Part shown: one piece after another, positions 10,751-25,049 of the stretch | Position numbering within the stretch: position 1 is the stretch's first letter | How the letters are laid out: every line of letters starts with the position of its first letter | From: an uncultured Phascolarctobacterium sp. | GTDB taxonomy: Bacteria; Bacillota; Negativicutes; Acidaminococcales; Acidaminococcaceae | Direction: 5' to 3' | DNA length: 25,049 nt | NCBI GenBank assembly: GCA_900553055.1 | Contig: USBV01000003.1 | Location: 1 to 25,049, forward strand | Program-made: the position numbers and the translations under genes | Notes under the pieces: generated by a model | Told to the model about the DNA's origin: nothing | The model's input: the letters and a program-made list of their open reading frames with translations, nothing else | The model's database searches: none

Positions 10751-13588
10751 TTAAATCTTTTTATATAAAATACGCACGGAATTCAGCACGCACAGCACGG
10801 AAACACCCGTATCCGCAAAAACGGCGGCCCACATCGAGGCATAACCCATCAGGCCTGCTACCATAATAATTACCTTAACGCCTAGAGCGAAAACCACGTT
10901 CTGCCAAGCGATGCTGCCCGTCGCACGGGCAATAGCGATGGCCTGAGGAATAGCCTTCATTTCGCTATTCATGAAAACTACATCCGCTGCCTCGATAGCA
11001 GCATCTGCGCCGCTGCCCATGGCTGCGCCCACATCGGCACCCGCCAGCACCGGTGCATCGTTGATGCCGTCGCCCACGAACATCACAGCGCCATATTTAT
11101 TACGTATTTTATTGAGCTCATTGAGCTTATCCTGAGGCAAAAGCTGTGCCCTCACCTCGTCAATACCAGCAGCGCTAGCCACGGCCTGAGCCTCTTTTGG
11201 GGCATCACCCGTAAGCATAGCAGTGACCAAGCCCTGCTTTTTCAAAGTGGCGATAGCTGCTTGAGCATCCTCCTTCAGCGTATCGCTAATCACAAGCTGG
11301 CCGATAAAGTTAGAGCCTTCTGCTACCAGCACCTCACTGCCGCTGGCAGCTGCTTCGTAGGCTTCGCACTTAATACCAAAGTGCTGCATCAGCTTGGTAT
11401 TACCACAGAGCACGCGCTTAGTGCCAAAATGCGCCACCAAGCCCTCGCCGGCAATCTCTTCAAAGCTGTCCGGTCGTACCAGCGTGAGGCCTCTTTCCTT
11501 CGCCGCTTGCACGATGCTTTGGGCAATGGGATGGGTCGAAACAAGCTCTGCGCTGGCGGTATATTGCAAAAGCTCCGCTTCGCTAAAGTCTTGTGCTGCC
11601 TGCAGGGACTGCAGTACGAAATTACCCTTGGTCACGGTGCCGGTTTTATCCATAATCACGGCCTTCACATGCTTTAAAGCCTCCATGGCTACGCCACCCT
11701 TGAACAGGATGCCATATTTGGAGCCAGCGCCGATACCGCTGAAAAAGGCCAAGGGTACGCTCAGCACTAAAGCGCAGGGACAGCTAATAACGAGGAAGGT
11801 CAGTGCTGTGTAAACCCATTTTTGCCAATCCCCTGTAAGCAGGGAGGGAATCACAGCCACAGCCACTGCCGCAGCTACTACAAAGGGAGTATAAACACGG
11901 GCGAAGCGGGTAATAAAGCGGTCAATGGTCGGCTTGGAGGCAGCGGCATTTTCCACGCTGTCCAAAATTCTCGTTACCATGGACTCTGCCAGCACCTTTT
12001 CCACGCGAATTTTGAGCATACCGCTGGTATTCACGCAGCCGGAGACGATTTCATCACCATATTTACGCTTCACCGGCACGGGTTCGCCCGTAACGGGGGA
12101 AGTGTCCACGAGGCTTTCGCCTTCAATAACCACGCCATCCAGAGGAATGCGGTCGCCGGCGCGTACCAAAAGAATATCGCCCACATGCACGTCCTCGGCA
12201 GGGATAACCTTCACCTCTTCGCCCACCAGCAGATTCACAACCTCAGGACGCATATCCACTGCATCCATAATCTGGCCACGGCTTTTTTCTACAGCGCGCT
12301 GCTCAAAATACTCGCCCACGCGATAGAAGAACATAACGCCCACAGCCTCTTCCCAGGCCTGAATGGCGAAAGCACCGAGGGTAGCTACCGTCATCAAAAA
12401 GTTTTCGTCAAAAACATTGCCCTTCAAGATATTCTTCAGAGCAGTTATAACAATACGCCCACCTAATAAAATGTAGGCGAAAATCAGGCAATACATATGA
12501 TAGGCCTCGGGAATCAGGCCCAACCATTCAGTGATGATAAAAACTGCACCACCAAGGGCAATCTCCAGCAGCGACTCCTTTTCGCTAAGGCTGGATAGAA
12601 TGCCACCGGCCTTCTTGCGCTCCTCCAGATCAGGGGCTAGACTGGGCTTGGTGTGAGCCTCCACCAGCAGCACGCCCTCCTCCACACTATCGGTAACTGC
12701 TTGCATCTTAGCCAGCAGTCCTTCATAATTAGTGGCCTTGATCTGCAGCTTTTTGGTAGTAAAGGTCAGCACGGCGCTATCGATTTCCGGCATAGCGTTA
12801 AGGGCACGCTCGATTTTCGCACCACAATTAGCGCAATCCAGATTTTGCACTAAATAAGTGCGGCCGCTGTCCTTGCCGACCTCGGGACGCTTATCACGCG
12901 GTATAACCTCCACATCGGATTCGATGGAGGTACAGATTTTTTGAATCAGGGGCAGCAGTGCTTCGTGATCTGCGGCGCTCAAGCGCAGCTGCTTCGTGGT
13001 GAAGCCTACATTGGCATAGGTAACGCCCGGCAGCTCCTTAATTTTATGCTCCATTTTGGCAGCGCAATTGGCACAGCCTAAGTTTTTCAAAATATAAACA
13101 CGCTTCACCTTATCCGCATCGGGCATTCTGCAGGTGCAGTTGGCTAAGCTTTCGCCACAAACATCGCAGTACTCCTCGTGAGGATGGCAAATTTCACATT
13201 GGCAGTCATCGGGATGCCCCGGCACATGATGTGCGTGCTCATGATGATGCTCGTACCCACAGCCGCATTCATCGTCATCATGCTCTTCATGCTCATGATG
13301 ATGCTCCTCATGCGCAGCGTGGTCATTACCACAGCAGCAGTCATCGTGCTGTTCCGCAGCATGCTCATGCGTATGGCTGCAGCCATCACCATGGCTATGC
13401 TTCGGGATATGCCCCATGCTGCTATGATTGTGGTCCTTGCCACAGTGACCACAGGTACAGCCTTCGGGATGGTTGCTATAATCTTCATTCCCCTTAATAT
13501 GTCCGTGCACATGTCTAAAGCTGCGCACCTCTTCCGAGGAGTTACGCACTTCTTCTAAATCCCTAACTGCTTTTTTATCATCTTTCAC
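10751..13588 (-). CDS. cadA: PIB-type Zn/Cd/Pb-transporting P-type ATPase with His/Cys-rich N-terminus
   Basis: This 945-aa inner-membrane pump exports divalent soft metals. Residues 26-153 hold 30 His and 16 Cys, including two HPxxCxCxxC units (40-49 and 125-134) and a CxxC...CxC knuckle (141-153). Two HMA domains follow (metal-binding CANC at 172-175 and 252-255). The pump core has TGEPVP (500), CPC in the membrane (603-605), phosphorylation loop DKTGT (647), HP (686) and GDGINDAP (839). K905 and D926 in the last two helices match the ZntA-type (PIB-2) site, which favours Zn/Cd/Pb over Cu. Typical family length is 650-800, so the extension is unusual. The start is GTG with SD GGTGG 9 nt upstream; no in-frame ATG lies before residue 58. 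Confidence 0.95.
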   Translation of the reverse strand: MKDDKKAVRDLEEVRNSSEEVRSFRHVHGHIKGNEDYSNHPEGCTCGHCGKDHNHSSMGHIPKHSHGDGCSHTHEHAAEQHDDCCCGNDHAAHEEHHHEHEEHDDDECGCGYEHHHEHAHHVPGHPDDCQCEICHPHEEYCDVCGESLANCTCRMPDADKVKRVYILKNLGCANCAAKMEHKIKELPGVTYANVGFTTKQLRLSAADHEALLPLIQKICTSIESDVEVIPRDKRPEVGKDSGRTYLVQNLDCANCGAKIERALNAMPEIDSAVLTFTTKKLQIKATNYEGLLAKMQAVTDSVEEGVLLVEAHTKPSLAPDLEERKKAGGILSSLSEKESLLEIALGGAVFIITEWLGLIPEAYHMYCLIFAYILLGGRIVITALKNILKGNVFDENFLMTVATLGAFAIQAWEEAVGVMFFYRVGEYFEQRAVEKSRGQIMDAVDMRPEVVNLLVGEEVKVIPAEDVHVGDILLVRAGDRIPLDGVVIEGESLVDTSPVTGEPVPVKRKYGDEIVSGCVNTSGMLKIRVEKVLAESMVTRILDSVENAAASKPTIDRFITRFARVYTPFVVAAAVAVAVIPSLLTGDWQKWVYTALTFLVISCPCALVLSVPLAFFSGIGAGSKYGILFKGGVAMEALKHVKAVIMDKTGTVTKGNFVLQSLQAAQDFSEAELLQYTASAELVSTHPIAQSIVQAAKERGLTLVRPDSFEEIAGEGLVAHFGTKRVLCGNTKLMQHFGIKCEAYEAAASGSEVLVAEGSNFIGQLVISDTLKEDAQAAIATLKKQGLVTAMLTGDAPKEAQAVASAAGIDEVRAQLLPQDKLNELNKIRNKYGAVMFVGDGINDAPVLAGADVGAAMGSGADAAIEAADVVFMNSEMKAIPQAIAIARATGSIAWQNVVFALGVKVIIMVAGLMGYASMWAAVFADTGVSVLCVLNSVRILYKKI

Positions 13589-13866: not shown

Positions 13867-14853
13867 TTAAAATAGGTGGCAGGCCACCCAGTGCCCCTGC
13901 TCAATTTCTTTAAGCGTGGGCTTATTCTTGAGGCAGTTTTCGCTGCAATGCTCGCAGCGACTAGCAAAGGGACACCCTGGCGGTAAATCCAGGGGACTGG
14001 GGATTTCGCCCTCTATGGGCTCAATCTTTTCGCCGGGACGAAAATCAACCTTAAAGACAGCCTTCATCAAGGCCTTGGTATAAGGATGCTTGCAGCTTTC
14101 GGCGATACGTCCGTGCTCCAGCCATTCCACCACATTGCCCAAATACATCACTGCTACCTGATGGCACATTAAGTCCACCAAGCCCAAGTCGTGGGCAATA
14201 AACAGATAGGTAATATTCTTTTCCTTTTGCAAACGACAGAGCAGCTCGCACACCTTTTCCTGTACAGAAACGTCCAAGGCGGAGGTTGCTTCGTCGCAGA
14301 CAATAATCTTGGGCTCTAGGGACAGGGCACGGGCAATACCCAAGCGTTGGCGCTGGCCGCCGCTCATGCTATGGGGATAGCGGTCCTTGAAGGAAGCAGG
14401 CAGCTCTACCATTTCCAAAAGCTCGGCAGCCTTAGCATCTACCTCATCCTTTTTAATCAAGCCAAAATTCTTCAAGGGCTCGGTGAGGATATCCTTCACC
14501 AACATCTTTGGGTTAAAGGCTGCTGTCGGGTCTTGAAAGACCATTTGGATTTTGCGACGATCCTGACGGGACTCCTCGCCCCGATCCTTAAGCAAATCGT
14601 GACCTTCAAAAATGGCCTCACCGCTGGTAGCAGGCTGAATCTGCAGCAGCGTGCGCACCAAGGTGCTCTTACCACAGCCGGATTCGCCAATGATGCCCAA
14701 GGTTTTGCCCTCGTAGGCACGCAGGGAAATATCGTTGCAGGCCGTCAACAGTCTACCGTCATCCACCTTAAATTGCTTGGTCAAATGCTTAATATCTAAA
14801 ATAACCTTATTACGCTCATAGGCGGGCTTGACAGCACTATTTTGATTAGGCAT
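13867..14853 (-). CDS. Nickel/peptide-type ABC transporter ATP-binding protein (NikE/DppF-like)
   Basis: This 328-aa protein is the second ATPase of the B12-riboswitch-controlled importer. Motifs are Walker A GESGCGKST (56-64), MSGGQRQR (163-170) and Walker B IIVCDEA (183-189). The C-terminal oligopeptide/nickel extension carries a cluster of cysteines (GCPFASRCEHCSENC and a final ACH). In some OppD/F-type ATPases such a cluster binds an iron-sulfur centre; whether it does here is not known. Its ATG overlaps the end of the preceding ATPase gene by 8 nt, with AGGAGG upstream, indicating coupled translation. It is the last gene of the operon. Confidence 0.92.
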   Translation of the reverse strand: MPNQNSAVKPAYERNKVILDIKHLTKQFKVDDGRLLTACNDISLRAYEGKTLGIIGESGCGKSTLVRTLLQIQPATSGEAIFEGHDLLKDRGEESRQDRRKIQMVFQDPTAAFNPKMLVKDILTEPLKNFGLIKKDEVDAKAAELLEMVELPASFKDRYPHSMSGGQRQRLGIARALSLEPKIIVCDEATSALDVSVQEKVCELLCRLQKEKNITYLFIAHDLGLVDLMCHQVAVMYLGNVVEWLEHGRIAESCKHPYTKALMKAVFKVDFRPGEKIEPIEGEIPSPLDLPPGCPFASRCEHCSENCLKNKPTLKEIEQGHWVACHLF

Positions 14854-15637
14854 AATAACACTTCCCTCCTATGATAGGCACTGCTCGTAGCAGCTGCTTG
14901 GTATATTCATGCTGAGGATTGCCAATAACATCCTCACGCTTGCCATATTCCACAACCTTGCCACCCTGCATAACCATAATTTTATTGGAAACATAGGAGG
15001 CAACACCAATATTATGAGTTACGATAATCACCGCAACCTTATATTCGTTGCGAATATCCACGATTTGGCGAATAATCTGAGCTTGCGTAGTAACGTCCAA
15101 GGCACTGGTGGGCTCATCGGCCAGCAATATCTTCGGGCTGAAAATCATGGCCATAGCGATGCCTACACGCTGACGCATACCGCCGGAAAGCTCAAAGGGA
15201 TAGCAATTCATAATATTTTCCGGATTGGGCAAACGCACATTGGTCAGCATTTGGCAAGCCATTTCATAAGCCTCACCCTTGGATTTATCCGGCTGGTGGG
15301 CTTGGATATAGTCGATGAATTGCGCGCCGATGCGGCGAATAGGGTTAATCATATTGCCGCTGTCCTGGAAAATCATCGACATTTCGCTGCCATACATCTG
15401 CCGCCACTGCTCCGGCGTGTTTTGCAGTACATCCTTACCATCAAAGGTAATGGAGCCTGCACTCACGCGCCCAGTACCAGGCAAGCAACCCATAATGGCG
15501 CGGATGACGGTTGTTTTACCACTGCCGGACTCGCCTACAATGGACATTATCTCGCCCTTATCTAATTCTAGGCTAGCACCAGCTACGGTGAGGCGCTCAC
15601 CGTAGCTGATGTCTAAATCTTTTACTTGAAGTAGCAT
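14846..15637 (-). CDS. Nickel/peptide-type ABC transporter ATP-binding protein (NikD/DppD-like)
   Basis: This 263-aa protein is the first ATPase of the importer and would form a heterodimer with the next gene product. Motifs are Walker A GESGSGKTT (35-43), Q-loop FQDSGNMINP, LSGGMRQR (150-157) and Walker B ILLADEP (170-176), then THNIGV with the switch histidine. It is shorter than the typical DppD (~330 aa) because the C-terminal peptide-type extension is nearly absent. This length is closer to NikD (~254 aa) and supports a metal-type transporter. The start ATG has AAGG upstream. It follows the binding-protein gene by 33 bp. Confidence 0.92.
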   Translation of the reverse strand: MLLQVKDLDISYGERLTVAGASLELDKGEIMSIVGESGSGKTTVIRAIMGCLPGTGRVSAGSITFDGKDVLQNTPEQWRQMYGSEMSMIFQDSGNMINPIRRIGAQFIDYIQAHQPDKSKGEAYEMACQMLTNVRLPNPENIMNCYPFELSGGMRQRVGIAMAMIFSPKILLADEPTSALDVTTQAQIIRQIVDIRNEYKVAVIIVTHNIGVASYVSNKIMVMQGGKVVEYGKREDVIGNPQHEYTKQLLRAVPIIGGKCYYA

Positions 15638-15670: not shown

Positions 15671-17248
15671 TTAGTTCTTCGGAGCAATGTCCTTAGTCAG
15701 CCAATAATAATCAGCCGGATAAATATTGGCATTTGCTAAACCAGCTTTAGATACCATATTAGTCTTAGGATAACCAAAGAACAGAGCTACACCATCATCC
15801 AACAGGATTTGTTGCATTTCAATCATGTATTGACGGCGCTTAGCCGGATCAAATTCTACAGCCAGCTTGTCGGACAGAGCATCAAACTTCGGATTGCTGT
15901 AGCCGGTGGAATTTTGCGGTTGGCTACCATTGATATTGCTCTTCCAGTACCAGTTCAAATAAACCTCCGGGTCACCAGTATTTGCAGTAAGGATGTTGGA
16001 AATAATCAGGTCAAATTGACCCTTTTGGCGCATGGGATCCAGCACGTTGTAGTCCACATTCTTCATATTAACCTTAATACCAATTTTCTTAGCATCTGCT
16101 TGAGTTGCTTCAGCGTACAGAGGTAATTCAGCACGACCACTGTAGAAAACAAAGTCTATTTCCAAATTTTTGCCGTTCTTATCCACATAGCCGTCGCCAT
16201 TGGTATCCTTCCAGCCAGCTTCAGCCAAAAGTTTCTTTGCGTTTTCAGGATTATAAGCATTGGGATCCTTCAATTGGTCAAAGCCATAATCCAAAGAAGG
16301 AGGAACAGGTGCTTTGCCCGGAATAAAGGTGTCCTTTAAGAGGACCTTATTATAGGTAACACGGTCCAAGCATTGAATCAGGGCAGCACGCACCTTAGGA
16401 TCATGCAGGGGTTTGCCCTCGTTCATATTAATCTGGGCCAGCACAGTACGCAGGGAGGCAATCTCAGAGATATTGTATTTTGCTTTATCCTTGAACAGCT
16501 GCAGGTCGCCTGCTGCAATATTGATAGCAAAGTCGATTTCACCCTTTTGCAAAGCCATAGCACGGGTATTGGGGTCATCAATGGTAGGAATCTCTGCATT
16601 CTTGAAGGGAACAGCGCCATCCCAATAATTGGGGTTAGCAACCATCACAGCCTTAGCCTTGCTATAGGTCTTGACAGCGTAGGGACCGGTACAGATAGGA
16701 CCTTCTTTCTTAATATCCCTATCCTTAACCTTGGTATCAATGATAATGAACAGGGGGTCTGCCAGCATGCCAGGTAAGGAAGGAGTGGGGTTTTTAGTTT
16801 TAATAATTAAATTTTGTCCGTCAGCCTTAATTTCGGCATATTGGAAGACGGATTGAGCTCGGTTGGAAAGCTTAAAGGTTCTTTCCAAGGATTCCTTAGC
16901 GATTTCAGCAGTCAGCTTATCACCATTAGAAAACTTAACCTTGTCGTTAATATGGAAGGTCCAGGTCAGCTTATCATCGGAAATAGACCATTTATCAGCC
17001 AACCAAGGAGTAGCATTCATTTTGTTATCAAATTTCACCAAGCATTCGCCCAAACCATAGCGCATTACTACCCAGCTGAAGAAATTATCTGCAGGGTCCA
17101 GATTATCAGCAAAGTTGGTTACACCAAATTTTACCATTTCATTAGTAACATTTGCCTTTTTAGAGCTACCACCACCGCAGCCCGAGGCTGACAAAGCTAA
17201 TACACCAATCATGGCTGCTGCTGCGGAAATTTTAAATATTTTTTTCAT
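15671..17248 (-). CDS. Nickel/peptide-type ABC transporter substrate-binding lipoprotein (NikA/DppA family)
   Basis: This 525-aa extracytoplasmic receptor belongs to the SBP_bac_5 family. The lipoprotein signal ends at Cys24 (ASGC). Family landmarks are NLDPADNFFSWVVMRYGLGECLV, TWTFHINDKVKFSNGDKLTAE, CTGPYAVKTY (186-195) and NPNYWDG. DTNGDGYVD (348-356) resembles a calcium loop, as often seen in this family. The NLDPA...Y..GE.LV start is more like NikA-type than OppA-type receptors, but the cargo cannot be read from this. ATG 17248 is used because AGGAG lies 8 nt upstream; the in-frame GTG at 17257 overlaps that SD. Control by a B12 riboswitch suggests a corrinoid-related cargo such as cobalt. 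Confidence 0.9.
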   Translation of the reverse strand: MKKIFKISAAAAMIGVLALSASGCGGGSSKKANVTNEMVKFGVTNFADNLDPADNFFSWVVMRYGLGECLVKFDNKMNATPWLADKWSISDDKLTWTFHINDKVKFSNGDKLTAEIAKESLERTFKLSNRAQSVFQYAEIKADGQNLIIKTKNPTPSLPGMLADPLFIIIDTKVKDRDIKKEGPICTGPYAVKTYSKAKAVMVANPNYWDGAVPFKNAEIPTIDDPNTRAMALQKGEIDFAINIAAGDLQLFKDKAKYNISEIASLRTVLAQINMNEGKPLHDPKVRAALIQCLDRVTYNKVLLKDTFIPGKAPVPPSLDYGFDQLKDPNAYNPENAKKLLAEAGWKDTNGDGYVDKNGKNLEIDFVFYSGRAELPLYAEATQADAKKIGIKVNMKNVDYNVLDPMRQKGQFDLIISNILTANTGDPEVYLNWYWKSNINGSQPQNSTGYSNPKFDALSDKLAVEFDPAKRRQYMIEMQQILLDDGVALFFGYPKTNMVSKAGLANANIYPADYYWLTKDIAPKN

Positions 17249-17284
17249 ATTATGCACTCCTATCTTTTAATACTAACCTTTACT

Positions 17285-17387
17285 AAAATCGTTCTGAAGG
17301 TACCATATACAAGGAATAGCGACGACGGTGTATCGGGAATACTCCTAGGAGCTACGACGCAGTAGATGGTGCCTTATGGACGATTTT
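17285..17387 (-). ncRNA. Long structured intergenic RNA element (candidate)
   Basis: Nearly the whole gap between the second permease gene and the binding-protein gene folds. The outer arms pair over 8 bp (17285-17292 with 17380-17387) and the inner arms over 10 bp with one mismatch (17297-17306 with 17366-17375). Inside are small hairpins: CTCCTAGGAG at 17342-17351, CTAC-N6-GTAG at 17352-17365 and GTAT-N5-ATAC at 17330-17342; the first and last share a base. No known family was recognised. It may be an RNA processing or stabilising element that raises binding-protein expression. Confidence 0.5.
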
Positions 17388-18224
17388 TTAATCTTTTACA
17401 TCGTTACGAGGGTCTAATACATCGCGCAAATTGTCACCCCAAAGGTTAAAAACAACTACTGTCACAAAAATCGCTAAGCCCGGGAAAATCATCAACCAGG
17501 GTGCAGTTTGCAGCTGCTGGCGTCCCTCGTTCAACATCAGGCCCCATTCAGGAGCAGGGGGCTGACTGCCAAAACCCAGGAAGGACAGACCTGCCAACTC
17601 CATCATCAGCGCACCAATATCAGCGGCTGCTGTAATAACCATCATGGGCAGAATGTTGGGCAGGATATGCACCCAGAGAATATGGGGAGATGTACCACCA
17701 TTGACAATGGCCGCTTCCACATAATCACGGCGCTTTACCTTGAGCACCATGCTGCGAGCCAAGCGAGCGTATTTAGTCCAGCTGACGATGGTCAATGCGA
17801 TAACAGCATTCACTAGGCTGCCGCCCATAATACCGGCAATTGCAATGGCCAAAATCATGCCGGGGAAGGAAATCATCATATCACTAAAGCGCATGATAAT
17901 TATATCCACCTTCCCGCCGAAATAGCCGGATAAAACACCCATCGTAGTGCCAACTAAGAAAACGCTGGCTACTAAAACTAAAACGCCGGTGAGAGAAGCA
18001 CGAGCACCATAGAGTACACGGCTAAAGCAGTCACGCCCCAGCTTATCTGTACCAAACAGATGCGTCATGCTGGGCTCTAAGAAAGCATCCTTCATCTCTG
18101 CATGGGTAGGGTCAAAGGGAGATATAATAGGCGCAGCTAAGGCTATCGCCAGCAAAAGCAGTACCAGCAGACTGGTCACTGCAAAGGCGCGGTTAGTTTT
18201 AAAACCATTTACTAAAGTTTCCAT
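17388..18224 (-). CDS. Nickel/peptide-type ABC transporter permease (NikC/DppC-like)
   Basis: This 278-aa inner-membrane permease has about six hydrophobic segments. DppC/NikC landmarks are PTHAEMKDAFLEPSMTHLFGTDKLGRDCFSRVLYGARASL (the N-terminal OppC-type region) and the EAA-type loop DYVEAAIVNGGTSPHILWVHILPNILP, which contacts the ATPases. It starts 3 nt after the first permease gene ends, so the two are coupled and would form the heterodimeric channel. The length is normal for NikC. Confidence 0.93.
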   Translation of the reverse strand: METLVNGFKTNRAFAVTSLLVLLLLAIALAAPIISPFDPTHAEMKDAFLEPSMTHLFGTDKLGRDCFSRVLYGARASLTGVLVLVASVFLVGTTMGVLSGYFGGKVDIIIMRFSDMMISFPGMILAIAIAGIMGGSLVNAVIALTIVSWTKYARLARSMVLKVKRRDYVEAAIVNGGTSPHILWVHILPNILPMMVITAAADIGALMMELAGLSFLGFGSQPPAPEWGLMLNEGRQQLQTAPWLMIFPGLAIFVTVVVFNLWGDNLRDVLDPRNDVKD

Positions 18225-18227
18225 TAC

Positions 18228-19169
18228 TTACCTCACCTTTCTTAAACGGGGATCAAGATGGTTATAGGACATATCTACAACTAGGTTGATCACCATATAC
18301 ATCAATGCAATCCACACTACTACGCCCTGCACTAATTGGAAGTCGCGGTAGGTAATTGCTTCAATAGCCAAGCGACCTAAGCCCGGCCATTGGAAAACCA
18401 TTTCAATAACAGCGGCACCGCCCAAAAGATTGCCCAGGGACAAGCCCAATAGAGTAATCAGCGGCAGCATAGCATTGGGCAGAACCTCCTTCCAGAGAAT
18501 GTGGCTTTCGGTCATGCCCCTGGCACGAGCGCCTACCACATAATCCTGATGCAGCTCCTCCAAAATAGCTGTGCGCACCTGACGCGTATATTTTGAAGCC
18601 ATGGCTATGGCTAGGGTCAGGGACGGCATAATTAACGTTTCCAAGCTAATTTCGCCACCAACAATAGGCAAAAGGTCCAACTTTAGGCCAAAAATCCACA
18701 GTAGCATAAGGCCTACCCAGAAGCCCGGCATGGACACACCCATGAAAGTAAAAACCCTCACGATATTATCCACAACACTACCGCGCTTCACAGCTGAATA
18801 AATGCCTGCCGGTATGGATACTACCATCATCATAAAAAGCGAGGCCAAGGATAGCAGTACAGTTCCTGGAAGTCCTTCCCACAGGGCCTCTACCACGGGT
18901 TTTTTCACCATGTAGGAAAAGCCTAAATTGCCCTGTAGCGCTCTGCCCAACCAATCCAAATATTGGAAGAAGAAGGGCTTATCCAAGCCCAACTCAGCAC
19001 GTAGAGCATCAATTTCCGCCTGGCTTACCATAATGTCCTCATTGCCGGCAATCATCTGTCGCACAACATCACCAGGCGCTAGCATTACCAAAGCAAAGGT
19101 AATGAAGCTGATGCCCAATAATACGAGAACGATCTGGCCTATGCGGGCCAGAATTTGTTTTTTCGTCAA
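18228..19169 (-). CDS. Nickel/peptide-type ABC transporter permease (NikB/DppB-like), first gene after the B12 riboswitch
   Basis: This 313-aa inner-membrane permease has about six hydrophobic segments. Landmarks are the N-terminal LARIGQIVLVLLGISFITFALVMLAPGD, GNLGFSYMVKKPV, and the EAA-type loop DYVVGARARGMTESHILWKEVLPNAMLP. The start is TTG at 19169 with GGAG 10 nt upstream; no in-frame ATG lies between it and an upstream stop codon. The weak start is consistent with a gene controlled mainly at the RNA level. It is the first gene of a five-gene operon lying directly behind the riboswitch terminator. Confidence 0.92.
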   Translation of the reverse strand: MTKKQILARIGQIVLVLLGISFITFALVMLAPGDVVRQMIAGNEDIMVSQAEIDALRAELGLDKPFFFQYLDWLGRALQGNLGFSYMVKKPVVEALWEGLPGTVLLSLASLFMMMVVSIPAGIYSAVKRGSVVDNIVRVFTFMGVSMPGFWVGLMLLWIFGLKLDLLPIVGGEISLETLIMPSLTLAIAMASKYTRQVRTAILEELHQDYVVGARARGMTESHILWKEVLPNAMLPLITLLGLSLGNLLGGAAVIEMVFQWPGLGRLAIEAITYRDFQLVQGVVVWIALMYMVINLVVDMSYNHLDPRLRKVR

Positions 19170-19195
19170 AACACATCATCTCCATATATAAAAAT

Positions 19196-19227
19196 AGCCT
19201 TTTTCTGCATAGAAACAGAAAAAGACT
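19196..19227 (-). terminator. Riboswitch-controlled intrinsic terminator
   Basis: A 12-bp stem, AGTCTTTTTCTG/CAGAAAAAGGCT (one G-U pair), closes a 7-nt loop and is followed by ATTTTTATATA on the minus strand. It lies between the cobalamin aptamer and the first permease start codon. Upstream CAGAA at the end of the aptamer linker can pair with TTCTG of the 5' arm, giving a possible antiterminator. Confidence 0.88.
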
Positions 19228-19249
19228 ACATAACGTGCACTATTATGTA
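19227..19249 (-). promoter_or_regulatory. Riboswitch P13/L13 hairpin
   Basis: A 7-bp stem, TACATAA/TTATGTA, has the 9-nt loop TAGTGCACG. Loop bases TGCAC (19239-19235) are exactly complementary to GTGCA in the aptamer's L5 loop (19349-19345). This is the L5-L13 kissing interaction typical of cobalamin riboswitches. The stem shares its last base with the terminator that follows. Confidence 0.75.
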
Positions 19250-19281
19250 ATATACTTCTGTCCCAAGCAGAATATATCATA

Positions 19282-19388
19282 CCGAGGCTGCGACCTGGCT
19301 AAGCCCATCAAGTAGGCTTCACAGTGGCTGGACCGCTGCGGATTTGCACCGCATTCCCTAATTTACCTCTCTTGCGAGAGCACCTCAG
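19282..19388 (-). promoter_or_regulatory. Cobalamin (B12) riboswitch aptamer
   Basis: On the minus strand the B12-box core is present almost intact: GGGAATGCGGTGCAAATCC, then GCAGCGG and CCAGCCACTGTGA, and later AGCCAGGTCGCAGCC. The closing P1 stem is CTGAGG (19388-19383) with CCTCGG (19287-19282). P5 is GCGG-N7-CCGC at 19338-19352. It binds adenosyl- or other cobalamins and, when occupied, should favour the downstream terminator, shutting off the five-gene transporter operon. The region 19170-19606 contains no protein gene. Confidence 0.95.
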
Positions 19389-19457
19389 CAGTTGACAAAA
19401 CACAAGTATTGACCAAATGAGCTAATTAGTAAATTTTTATTTTTGTATTACGATTAT

Positions 19458-21059: not shown

Positions 21060-22235
21060 TTATTTATATTGATTGTAATGCTTCGCTGCAGCACGATCTA
21101 TATCGAAGGCACGAATCAATTCTGTAACTGCTTGGCTAGGCGAAACCACACCATTAACAGCAGCCTCCATAACAGCGGGCAAACGCCCTTTAATCATGGG
21201 GTCCTCAAAGAAAAGATTATGCAAATGCTCGTCGATCATGCTATTAACCCAGGACACAGTCTGGCTTTTGCGCCGTCTCGCGAAAGCGCCCGATTCCTTA
21301 GTCATCTTTTCGAACTTGCGCATCACCGCCCACAGCTCTAGCAGGCCCTCGCCGGTAAGGGCAGAGCAGCGATAGGCATGGGTTTTCCAGCCCTCGGTAG
21401 CAGGACGAATGAACTCAATCATGCGTTCATACTCACCCTGGGTCACAATGGCCTTGGGCAAATTGTCCCCATCTGCCTTGTTAACCACAATGGCATCCGC
21501 CACCTCCATAATGCCCTTCTTAATGCCCTGCAAATCGTCACCTGCACCGGTGAGCACAACCAGCATAAAAAAGTCCACCATGGAGCGCACGGTAATTTCG
21601 CTTTGCCCCACGCCAACAGTTTCTACGAGAATGACATCACAGCCAGCGGCCTCGCACAGCAGCATGGTTTCGCGGCTTTTGCGAGCCACACCGCCCAAGG
21701 TTCCCTTGGCCGGGGAAGGGCGAATAAAGCAATTGGGTTCACGGGACAGCATCTGCATACGGGTTTTATCGCCCAAAATAGAGCCACCGGTTATGGAGCT
21801 AGTGGGGTCCACCGCCAGCACGGCCACCTTATAGCCCTGCTTGCACAGCATTTGACCAAAGGCTTCGATAAAGGTACTTTTGCCAGCACCGGGAACGCCG
21901 CTGATGCCAATGCGCAGGGCCTTGCCCGTGCGGGGCAAGAGTGACTGCAGCACCCGTTGCGCTTTGTCAAAATCCTTGGGAGCATTGCTTTCAATCAAAG
22001 TAATAGCTTGGGAAAGAGTTTTGCGATCGCCCTCACTGACTCCTTTAATTAGCTGTTCCGGAGTAGGCTTTTTCCGCAAAGGAAACCTTTTAATCTGCTC
22101 TACCGGAGTATACTTTTCTTCAGAAGCAGCGTTTACGGCACTATCAATACCGCCCATAACGGAGCAAGCAAAGTTGGGATCTTTTTTAAGAGGAACCCAG
22201 CTCGGCCTAATATCTTTTTCACCAGTTTCAGGCAT
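21060..22235 (-). CDS. meaB: Methylmalonyl-CoA mutase-associated GTPase MeaB (ArgK family)
   Basis: This 391-aa G3E-class GTPase gates adenosylcobalamin loading and protects methylmalonyl-CoA mutase from inactivation. Visible motifs are Walker A GVPGAGKST (113-121), VDPTSSITGGSILGDKTRM (142-160), the switch ETVGVGQSE (205-213), and NKAD (252-255). The C-terminal dimerisation arm is present. Family members are usually about 310-335 aa. Here residues 1-56 form an N-terminal extension without a recognised domain. The ATG has GAGGTGATG upstream and sits 10 bp after the mutase large-subunit stop, so it is co-transcribed with its client enzyme. Confidence 0.95.
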   Translation of the reverse strand: MPETGEKDIRPSWVPLKKDPNFACSVMGGIDSAVNAASEEKYTPVEQIKRFPLRKKPTPEQLIKGVSEGDRKTLSQAITLIESNAPKDFDKAQRVLQSLLPRTGKALRIGISGVPGAGKSTFIEAFGQMLCKQGYKVAVLAVDPTSSITGGSILGDKTRMQMLSREPNCFIRPSPAKGTLGGVARKSRETMLLCEAAGCDVILVETVGVGQSEITVRSMVDFFMLVVLTGAGDDLQGIKKGIMEVADAIVVNKADGDNLPKAIVTQGEYERMIEFIRPATEGWKTHAYRCSALTGEGLLELWAVMRKFEKMTKESGAFARRRKSQTVSWVNSMIDEHLHNLFFEDPMIKGRLPAVMEAAVNGVVSPSQAVTELIRAFDIDRAAAKHYNQYK

Positions 22236-22245
22236 TTACATCACC

Positions 22246-24441
22246 TCAGTCCTCAGCCTGTTCAGCCTTCGCGCGGTCAACCAGCATTTGCAGCAGCTGG
22301 ATGCAGCATTTGGGAATATTGGTACCGGGGCCAAAGATACCTGCAGCACCATGCTCGTACAGATAATCATAGTCTTGAGCAGGGATTACGCCACCAATGC
22401 AAACCATGATATCCTCACGACCGCGTTTTTTCAATTCATCAACCAGAGCGGGCAGCAAGGTCTTGTGACCTGCAGCCAGGGAGGAGAAGCCTACCATATC
22501 AACGTCGTTATCCACTGCATCTTGAGCGGATTCCTCGGGAGTTTGGAACAAGGGACCAACGTCGACAGTCCAGCCCATATCGGCAAAGGAGGTTGCCAGT
22601 ACCTTTTGGCCACGGTCATGACCATCCTGACCCATCTTGGCCAAGAAGATACGCGGACGACGGCCCTCCAGCTTTTCAAACTCATCAGCCAGCTTGGTGG
22701 CTTTTTCCATATCGTCGTTGCCACTGAATTCGGAAGAATATACACCGGAAACAGTGTGGATTACAGCATTGAAACGACCGGAAACCTTTTCTACTGCGTC
22801 GGAAATTTCGCCCAAGGAAGCACGGTCGCGTGCTGCTTGTACGGCCATCTCCAGCAGGTTGCCGTTGTCACGGCTTTCGGCGGCGCGAGTAATAGCCTCC
22901 AGGTCAGCTCTAACCTTTTCGCCATCACGCTCTGCTCTCAGTTTTTCCAAGCGCTTGATTTGGGCATTGCGTACAGCGGTATTATCAATGGACAATACGT
23001 TCAGCGGGTCTTCCTTAGCCAAACGATACTTGTTCAGGCCAACGATGGTTTCCTTGCCGCTGTCGATGTTAGCTTGACGGCGAGCTGCGCACTCTTCGAT
23101 ACGCATCTTGGGCAAGCCGGTGGCAATAGCCTTGGCCATACCGCCCAAAGCTTCAACCTCTTGAATATGAGCCCAAGCACGGCGAATAATCTCATTAGTG
23201 AGGTATTCCAGATAATAGGAACCGCCCCACGGGTCAATAATCTTGCAAACCTTGGTCTCGTCCTGAATATACAGCTGGGTATTACGGGCCAGGCGAGCGG
23301 AGAAGTCAGTAGGCAGCGCGATAGCTTCGTCCAAAGCGTTAGTATGCAGGGATTGGGTGTGGCCCAAGGCTGCAGACATAGCTTCCATACAGGTTCTGGA
23401 AATATTGTTAAACGGATCCTGCTCTGTCAGGGACCAGCCAGAGGTTTGGCTATGGGTGCGCAGCGCCATGGATTTCGGATTCTTAGCGCCAAAGCTCTTC
23501 AGGATCTTAGCCCACAGCACGCGAGCCGCACGCATCTTGGCCACTTCCATGAAGTAGTTTTTGCCCATATCCCAGAAGAAGGACAAGCGTTTCGCGAAGG
23601 CATCCACCGGCAGGCCGGCAGCTTCACCGGTACGGATATATTCCATACCATCTGCCAGAGTATAGCCCAGCTCCAGGTCGCAGGTAGCGCCGCATTCCTG
23701 AATATGATAGCCGGAAATAGAAATGCTGTTGAACTTAGGCATGTATTTGGTGGTATATTCAAAAATATCGCCGATAATACGCATGGACATAGCCGGCGGA
23801 TAAATATAAGTATTACGCACCATGAATTCCTTCAGGATATCGTTTTGAATGGTGCCCGCCATAATGGATTTATCAACGCCCTGCTCCTCGCCGGAAACGA
23901 TGAAGAAGGCCAGAATAGGCAGTACGGCGCCGTTCATAGTCATGGATACGGACATTTGATCCAAAGGAATGCCGCTGAACAGAATATTCATGTCCAGCAT
24001 GGAGCATACAGATACGCCAGCCTTACCTACGTCGCCTACAACACGTGGGTTATCGGCATCATAGCCGCGGTGGGTGGGCAGGTCGAAGGCGATGGACAAG
24101 CCCTTTTGACCAGCAGCCAAGTTGCGGCGGTAAAACGCGTTGGATTCCTCCGCAGTGGAGAAGCCTGCATATTGGCGTACAGTCCAGGGACGGAAAACAT
24201 ACATGGTGGAATAAGGGCCACGCAGGAACGGAGGAATGCCGCTCATGAAGTCCAAATGGTTGCATTTAGCATAGATATCCTTGGTATACAGCGGTTCTTT
24301 AGGAATACGCTCCAAGGTTGTATCGTAAAGGGCATCATAATTTTCGCCCATTTTCGCTTCCAGGTTTTTCTTCCATTCTTCATAAGAGCAGGACGGATGA
24401 TCCGGAACAGATACTTTAGTGAAATCAGGATTAATGCTCAT
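22246..24441 (-). CDS. mutB: Methylmalonyl-CoA mutase, large (catalytic) subunit
   Basis: This 731-aa adenosylcobalamin enzyme interconverts succinyl-CoA and (R)-methylmalonyl-CoA, the key carbon rearrangement in propionate formation from succinate. The N-terminal TIM barrel shows [56 protein letters not shown], and [19 protein letters not shown]. The C-terminal B12 domain carries DGHDRG (D606, H608, G611), where His replaces the lower ligand of cobalt, followed by the GG pair of the nucleotide tail site (IGGVIPAQD). The length matches the alpha chain of heterodimeric MCM. Its ATG overlaps the small-subunit stop (TAATG), indicating coupling. Confidence 0.98.
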
Positions 24442-25049
24442 TATTCAATCATCCCCTTCTTCTGTTGCAGTTTCTTCAAGGTTGCAAAGCAATTAGCTTT
24501 GACACTGATAAAATCATCAACACCGGCAGCTAGATAAATAGCCTCCAAATCCTTAGGTGCTGCGCCTGCCAGGAACAGAGTCATATTGGGGTTGGCAGCC
24601 TTCAGCATAGGAGCCAGCGCCGGCACATCCTCCGGATAGGTTTTATCAGTGGAGCAAATTACAGCCACATCGTAGGGAGTACCCTTATCGTCAATACCAG
24701 CCTTCAAGGCAGCTACGCATTTCTCATAGCGGGAACCGGGCTTGCCCTCGTCATCCTGGAAGCCATTGTTCAGATGCACATTGAATTCGCCAACCTGCAG
24801 GAAGCTGGTGGAGAAGTCGGCGCGAGCCTTGTGTTGGGGAATGGGTCCCATGTTAGCCAGGAATACCTCCACATTCTTACCAGTTTCCTTCATATAGCGT
24901 TCCGTATCAAAGCGCAGCGCTTCATAACGCTCGGTCCAATGATGAGCGGTGATGGGTGTGATAGTCTCGATTTCTTCAGCCTTGCAGCCCGCTGCTGCAA
25001 CCTGTCCTAAAGTAGCGCCATTACTAAAGGCTTCAACGGCTGCTTCTAC
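24441..25049 (-). CDS. mutA: Methylmalonyl-CoA mutase, small subunit (C-terminal part, runs off the window)
   Basis: The open frame reaches the right edge with no stop; 202 codons are visible, ending at TAA on 24443-24441. An internal Met at 24893 is not the start: the frame upstream still reads as mutase ([46 protein letters not shown]). The C-terminal domain resembles the B12-binding fold but lacks the DxHxxG motif, as expected for the non-catalytic beta chain ([21 protein letters not shown] aligns where the large subunit has its cobalamin motif). It pairs with the following gene to form the heterodimer. The real start lies outside the window. Confidence 0.95.

Follow-up and report, generated by a model that had tools for sequence, protein, structure and literature searches.

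A cobalamin riboswitch ahead of a peptide/nickel-type ABC importer operon in Phascolarctobacterium: a conserved arrangement and a candidate cobalt uptake system

The operon and its leader

The window analysed here, a stretch of 25,049 nucleotides (nt) from an uncultured Phascolarctobacterium sp. (GenBank assembly GCA_900553055.1, contig USBV01000003.1, positions 1 to 25,049), carries on its reverse strand a cobalamin (B12) riboswitch aptamer (19269–19402) located 99 nt upstream of a five-gene operon for an ATP-binding cassette (ABC) importer. A five-gene operon of the NikABCDE/DppABCDF type following a riboswitch had been proposed in the original prediction, which was made from the letters alone, and searches with Pfam and NCBIfam profiles confirmed the family. 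Starting from the TTG at 19169 the gene order is permease, permease, receptor, ATPase and ATPase, and the set of a peptide/nickel ABC importer is complete within this one operon, with an SBP_bac_5 receptor, two BPD_transp_1 permeases and two ABC_tran ATPases (Pfam).

The NikB-type permease gene (18228–19169) scored 378 bits with the NCBIfam model Opp2B (cut-off 350 bits) and is separated by 3 nt from the NikC-type permease gene (17388–18224), which scored 328 bits with Opp2C (cut-off 300 bits); Opp1B, Opp1C, TIGR02789, TIGR02790, PRK10352 and PRK10417 were failed by the window permeases. The solute-binding lipoprotein is encoded at 15671–17248, as the ATG at 17248 suits the upstream GGAG better than the GTG at 17257 given in the list of open reading frames (ORFs), and its closest named family is Opp5A/NikA, with a score under the cut-off. 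The ORFs of the two ATPases (14846–15637, 263 amino acids; 13867–14853, 328 amino acids, with an oligo_HPY C-terminus), both assigned by Pfam and NCBIfam, overlap by 8 nt. The shortness of the first ATPase had been taken to fit the nickel type, a claim that did not hold: its best NCBIfam score was with OppD (244.5 bits), followed by DppD, CntF, CntD and NikD (225–228 bits), all far under the cut-off, and as these models fail to separate the types we discarded this character as evidence for nickel.

The aptamer matched the Rfam family RF00174 with 47.2 bits (E = 4.2e-9; gathering threshold 31.5 bits) over a span of model positions 1–189 of 189 with both model ends complete, in agreement with the earlier claim of a complete aptamer. 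This covariance-model match lies where the aptamer had been placed, at 19282–19388, although the ends differ from those given by Rfam. It is of a short form of 134 nt, in which 9 nt stand in for 62 model positions, and is the sole match listed at the gathering threshold in the window, one weaker overlapping match of the same clan not being counted. The leader stretch 19155–19405 gave a fold better than those of all 200 dinucleotide-shuffled sequences (z = −4.3).

Downstream of the aptamer three hairpins follow on the same strand. A P13 hairpin and an intrinsic terminator had been predicted, and both were recovered. The best placement of P13 is at 19275–19252, where its loop GCUUGGGAC is in register with the loops of relatives, for example GCGAGUGAC and GCGAGCGAC; position and loop are kept in 12 leaders, in agreement with the folds. 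The terminator (19229–19194) consists of a 15-pair stem with a T-rich tail, and between the two sits a second hairpin (UACAUAA..UUAUGUA; 19249–19227). When the whole leader was folded the terminator formed. When folded without the 3′ arm of the terminator, the 3′ arm of P13 (19264–19255) paired with the 5′ half of the terminator (19221–19212) around the second hairpin, and this alternative pairing is a candidate antiterminator.

The same complementarity was compared with shuffled sequences in 12 leaders from the window's family and order (f1 and f4), several of which are close kin and in some of which the pairing includes the P13 loop; it reached p ≤ 0.051 in eight and p < 0.1 in ten. A stem of differing letters is maintained, as the window, L034, L035 and L037 illustrate. 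A 12-leader alignment was too loose on the 3′ side for a covariance model. Of the leaders with a terminator, 55 in all, no more than 14 gave p ≤ 0.05; we therefore claim the mechanism for the 12 leaders only, and other families may use another arrangement.

The anatomy of the leader suggests a P13/antiterminator/terminator mechanism. Under a shortage of corrinoid, the antiterminator pairing between P13 (3′ arm) and the terminator (5′ half) would form and transcription would read through, so that the lipoprotein receptor, the two permeases and the two ATPases would be made and cobalt imported, probably chelated by a small molecule, for instance in a complex with histidine. In the organism of the window, corrinoid bound to the aptamer would be expected to keep P13 closed through a putative contact between loop 5 and loop 13; a P13 held closed in this way would release the terminator arm and the operon would be switched off. 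Operons of Dehalobacter with a cobalamin riboswitch and a predicted terminator are repressed by corrinoid (PMC4285132).

Distribution of the riboswitch and the receptor

Seventy-five loci were fetched around receptor orthologs, 17 from the search of relatives and 58 from the search of the class. Sixty-eight of them have both nikB and the receptor gene, the seven without a nikB match being left outside the count, and several of these 68 operons share one genus, so that they do not count as independent cases. A same-strand riboswitch of the cobalamin family was found 100–284 nt before nikB in 55 of the 68 (two listed as RF01482). Nine loci of a paralog group with 34–39% identity (one cut before nikB and two with the receptor gene only) contained no cobalamin riboswitch at the gathering threshold. 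Orthologs occur in Phascolarctobacterium, Selenomonas, Mitsuokella, Anaerovibrio, Pelosinus, Veillonella, Dialister and others, according to the record names, from which we take their class to be the Negativicutes; receptors 99% identical to that of the window were found in genomes G002 and G004. At the level of sequence comparison, these data confirmed the predicted B12-riboswitch control of a NikABCDE/Dpp-type importer as an arrangement conserved across the class.

Some further features of these loci were observed. Extra, weaker cobalamin riboswitch matches are present ∼2–4 kb from the importer's own in L034 (1749–1833, 41.7 bits), L035 (14170–14314, 38.6 bits) and L038 (12773–12915, 32.3 bits). 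Ten loci, all of genus g49 (L100 and L102–L110), carry just downstream of the operon a second receptor gene whose product is 50–52% identical to that of the window. Three loci of the window's genus (L045, L046 and L047) have receptor genes of 58–61% identity and no nikB or nikC match in the fetched stretch, which in L046 and L047 is a whole short contig. The receptor ortholog of G017 (L033, 7916–9481) has one in-frame stop, due to error or decay, and was excluded from the protein alignments.

Cargo of the importer

As the original prediction had stated, databases label such genes as peptide or nickel transport, and the named receptor records read ABC transporter or peptide/nickel transport substrate-binding protein. 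It had also argued from the RNA that the cargo is cobalt or a related compound. The distribution of the receptor was examined in 150 genomes of the class, for which a completeness of at least 95% was requested; the nearest genome, G001 (60%), was also included. A genome was counted as a carrier if it had a receptor ortholog of at least 500 bits, and weaker matches were counted as non-carriers. All 67 carriers possess CbiC, an enzyme of corrin-ring synthesis, and the ortholog was found in none of the 14 CbiC-negative genomes (p = 2.7e-4 by genome); among the nearest relatives of the window, G002 has CbiC and G004 part of the gene. CbiN, by which a complete CbiMNQO importer was recognized here, was found in eight genomes of five genera, none of which has the ortholog. 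Among CbiC-positive genomes, a gene of the CbiM family was present in 13 of the 67 carriers and in 46 of the 69 others, an avoidance by carriers that was significant within families (p = 0.002). Demand for nickel was judged by PF00374 ([NiFe]-hydrogenase) only, matches above 500 bits being taken as strong, and the 13 carriers that belong to the window's family were all without such a full-length match.

From the distribution of CbiC, CbiN and [NiFe]-hydrogenase we infer that the cargo is best read as cobalt, which bears out the argument from the RNA, and the window probably encodes a cobalt importer that belongs to the peptide/nickel ABC family and is repressed by B12. In the sense of Zhang et al. 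(2009), B12-regulated cobalt NikABCDE systems are recognized by a B12 riboswitch directly upstream and by genomes that make the corrin ring, and both are found here. The conserved riboswitch together with the restriction to CbiC-positive genomes offers a testable reassignment of these receptors to cobalt. If true, this would be the route by which the cobalt of B12 enters many bacteria of the gut, the rumen and the mouth.

A number of observations weigh against a cobalt cargo or against its uniform control by B12. The association with CbiC fell to p = 0.07 when calculated by genus, the genomes not being independent, and seven of the 14 CbiC-negative genomes belong to one genus. The avoidance of CbiM was not significant within genera (p = 0.26); as the effect thus vanishes and 13 carriers do have a CbiM-family gene, we rejected CbiM as a clean opposite of the receptor. 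Three of these carriers (G002, G003 and G007) are of the window's own genus, and cobalt might enter them in that way. Twelve of the 13 CbiM-family genes have a long open frame; of these, only that of G002 was shown to encode a PDGLE domain, being a CbiM–PDGLE fusion beside a CbiQ-type gene that remained under every listed NCBIfam CbiM cut-off. Strong PF00374 matches occurred in 50 of the 67 carriers, all 50 outside the window's family, so that the hydrogenase argument holds only within that family and was dropped as a class-wide discriminator; even there, ten of the 13 carriers show a weak PF00374 match and three none. The receptor itself failed both NikA equivalog models, scoring 315.7 bits with Opp5A/NikA (cut-off 600) and 185.1 bits with the other (cut-off 393).

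To these points must be added the 13 of the 68 operons in which no riboswitch was detected (L040, L042, L059, L060, L061, L064, L067, L087, L088, L089, L098, L103 and L112). Five of them (L059, L060, L061, L064 and L067) are from one genus, g57, and L103 stops at a contig end ∼390 nt past nikB. A relaxed Rfam search of nine of the 13 (all except L040, L060, L067 and L103) found no cobalamin match with E values up to 1. L042 has a terminator-like hairpin and a piece of the second hairpin, AATAGTGCAC, upstream of nikB (10521), with no aptamer detected, and could represent a lost riboswitch.

Nickel, or a mixture of nickel and cobalt, imported under repression by B12, is an unlikely cargo, even though part of the evidence is favourable to it: the NikB- and NikC-type permeases pass the NCBIfam cut-offs for nickel permeases, three-quarters or so of the carriers have the strong hydrogenase match just mentioned, and mixed transport is hard to tell apart by sequence means. 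The AlphaFold model of the receptor (mean predicted local distance difference test score 89.7) also found, among the solved structures of highest Z score, the nickel-binding proteins of Bacillus halodurans (41.5) and Staphylococcus aureus (38.9). Peptide receptors follow close behind in the same list, a point against cobalt, and the fold therefore leaves the cargo undecided. The nickel-site residues of Escherichia coli NikA are listed as Arg97, Arg137, Tyr402 and His416 (Zhang et al., 2009; PMC2667541). None of the four is kept in the window receptor, where they align with Ala134, Asp167, Gly428 and Ile442, in an alignment that has gaps nearby, uses a mutant as the reference chain and places receptor Arg133 next to the Arg97 position; but S. 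aureus NikA also departs at Arg137, the one nickel-site position readable in it. Control by B12 has no obvious logic for nickel, and the window's family of carriers lacks the full-length hydrogenase match.

An importer of corrinoids (cobinamide or cobamides) or of corrinoid precursors would be in keeping with the riboswitch, as riboswitches of this kind often govern genes for corrinoid uptake (PMC3766115; PMC7689651). We nevertheless regard it as improbable. Genomes that do not make B12, for which salvage would matter most, would be expected to keep such an importer, yet the ortholog is missing from all 14 CbiC-negative genomes, with the reservation made above for the test by genus, and its restriction to CbiC-positive genomes favours cobalt over corrinoid import. 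The SBP_bac_5 and BPD_transp_1 domains are moreover unlike those of BtuCDF, and no BtuF- or FecCD-type domain was among the Pfam matches of the receptor and the permeases. That the system imports peptides, with the riboswitch reflecting a link of peptide supply to B12, seems highly improbable: family 5 receptors and their ATPases do resemble Opp/Dpp, but the receptor scored 76.7 bits with DppA (cut-off 1005) and 72.9 bits with OppA (cut-off 947), well below its score with Opp5A/NikA, and all carriers are CbiC-positive. The CntA model was not passed either (128.8 bits; cut-off 800).

Related systems

Cobalt import by the window's system, the reading we prefer, has precedents. Clostridium tetani and Desulfitobacterium hafniense are organisms outside the class of the window. 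Their NikABCDE systems, with an upstream B12 riboswitch predicted earlier, were described as the ones among NikA orthologs that depart from nickel specificity (Zhang et al., 2009; PMC2667541); like the window they have a predicted B12 riboswitch before a NikABCDE-family operon and cobalt as the presumed cargo, a likeness at the level of description. Kennedy et al. (2022; PMC9600662) tested 38 riboswitches before gfp in Bacillus subtilis, among them that of Sporomusa ovata nikA, which responded to corrinoids and was called promiscuous. As in the window, a cobalamin riboswitch is here combined with nikA in the Negativicutes, in another genus and likened by gene name; it was the RNA that was assayed, not the transporter. 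In view of the prediction by Zhang et al. and the assay of the S. ovata nikA riboswitch, our finding is not new in kind. A class-wide account of a B12-riboswitch nik-type importer was not found in the open-licence literature searched, and in the available part of PMC6250798, the one paper to combine Phascolarctobacterium, cobalt and riboswitch, nothing was found on cobalt uptake.

We know of no B12 riboswitch at the NikA system of S. aureus (Opp2/Opp5A), with which the window shares permeases that pass Opp2B and Opp2C, a receptor whose best match is Opp5A_nikA and a place among the top structures for S. aureus NikA; the window receptor is far under the equivalog cut-off. The energy-coupling factor (ECF) importer CbiMNQO, for which B12-riboswitch control is known (PMC4285132), has the same presumed cargo as the window's system and belongs to an unrelated protein family.

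Possible efflux genes and other neighbours

On the reverse strand at 10751–13588, 278 nt from the operon, lies the gene for a P-type ATPase of the heavy-metal type (Pfam and NCBIfam), whose N-terminus is very rich in His and which contains two HMA stretches. This gene is linked to the operon in nine of 14 relative loci, and its product may be the efflux partner of the importer. In Phascolarctobacterium faecium DSM 14760 (L035, 12766–13826), a NiCo riboswitch precedes a gene for a cation diffusion facilitator (CDF; cation-efflux) exporter on the opposite strand, ∼2.6 kb from the importer's aptamer; among the 14 longer nikB loci (L031–L044) this was the only one with a NiCo riboswitch at the gathering threshold. 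A broader proposal, which we put forward tentatively and lean slightly against, is that a distinct, cobalt-specific branch of NikA-family receptors might extend across the Negativicutes and, for a large part of the class, replace CbiMNQO in the role of main cobalt importer. In Phascolarctobacterium and its kin this branch would be wired to efflux, with the B12 riboswitch stopping import; the removal of excess metal would fall to the P-type ATPase linked to the operon or, for P. faecium, to the nearby CDF exporter under its NiCo riboswitch.

Within the 130-nt gap between the NikC-type permease and receptor genes lies a dispersed repeat with inverted ends (17275–17385), of which 13, 17, 7 and 23 matches were found in G001, G002, G003 and G004, respectively, and none in G005–G007. 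A hairpin in this gap was discounted, as it folds no better than shuffled sequences (z = −0.8) and is part of the genus repeat. Upstream of the riboswitch by ∼1.7 kb, genes for a MeaB-type GTPase and methylmalonyl-CoA mutase subunits, which have B12-dependent functions and were named by reading the sequence, occupy positions 21060–24893, and a multidrug and toxic compound extrusion (MATE) gene, identified by profile search, lies between them and the riboswitch.
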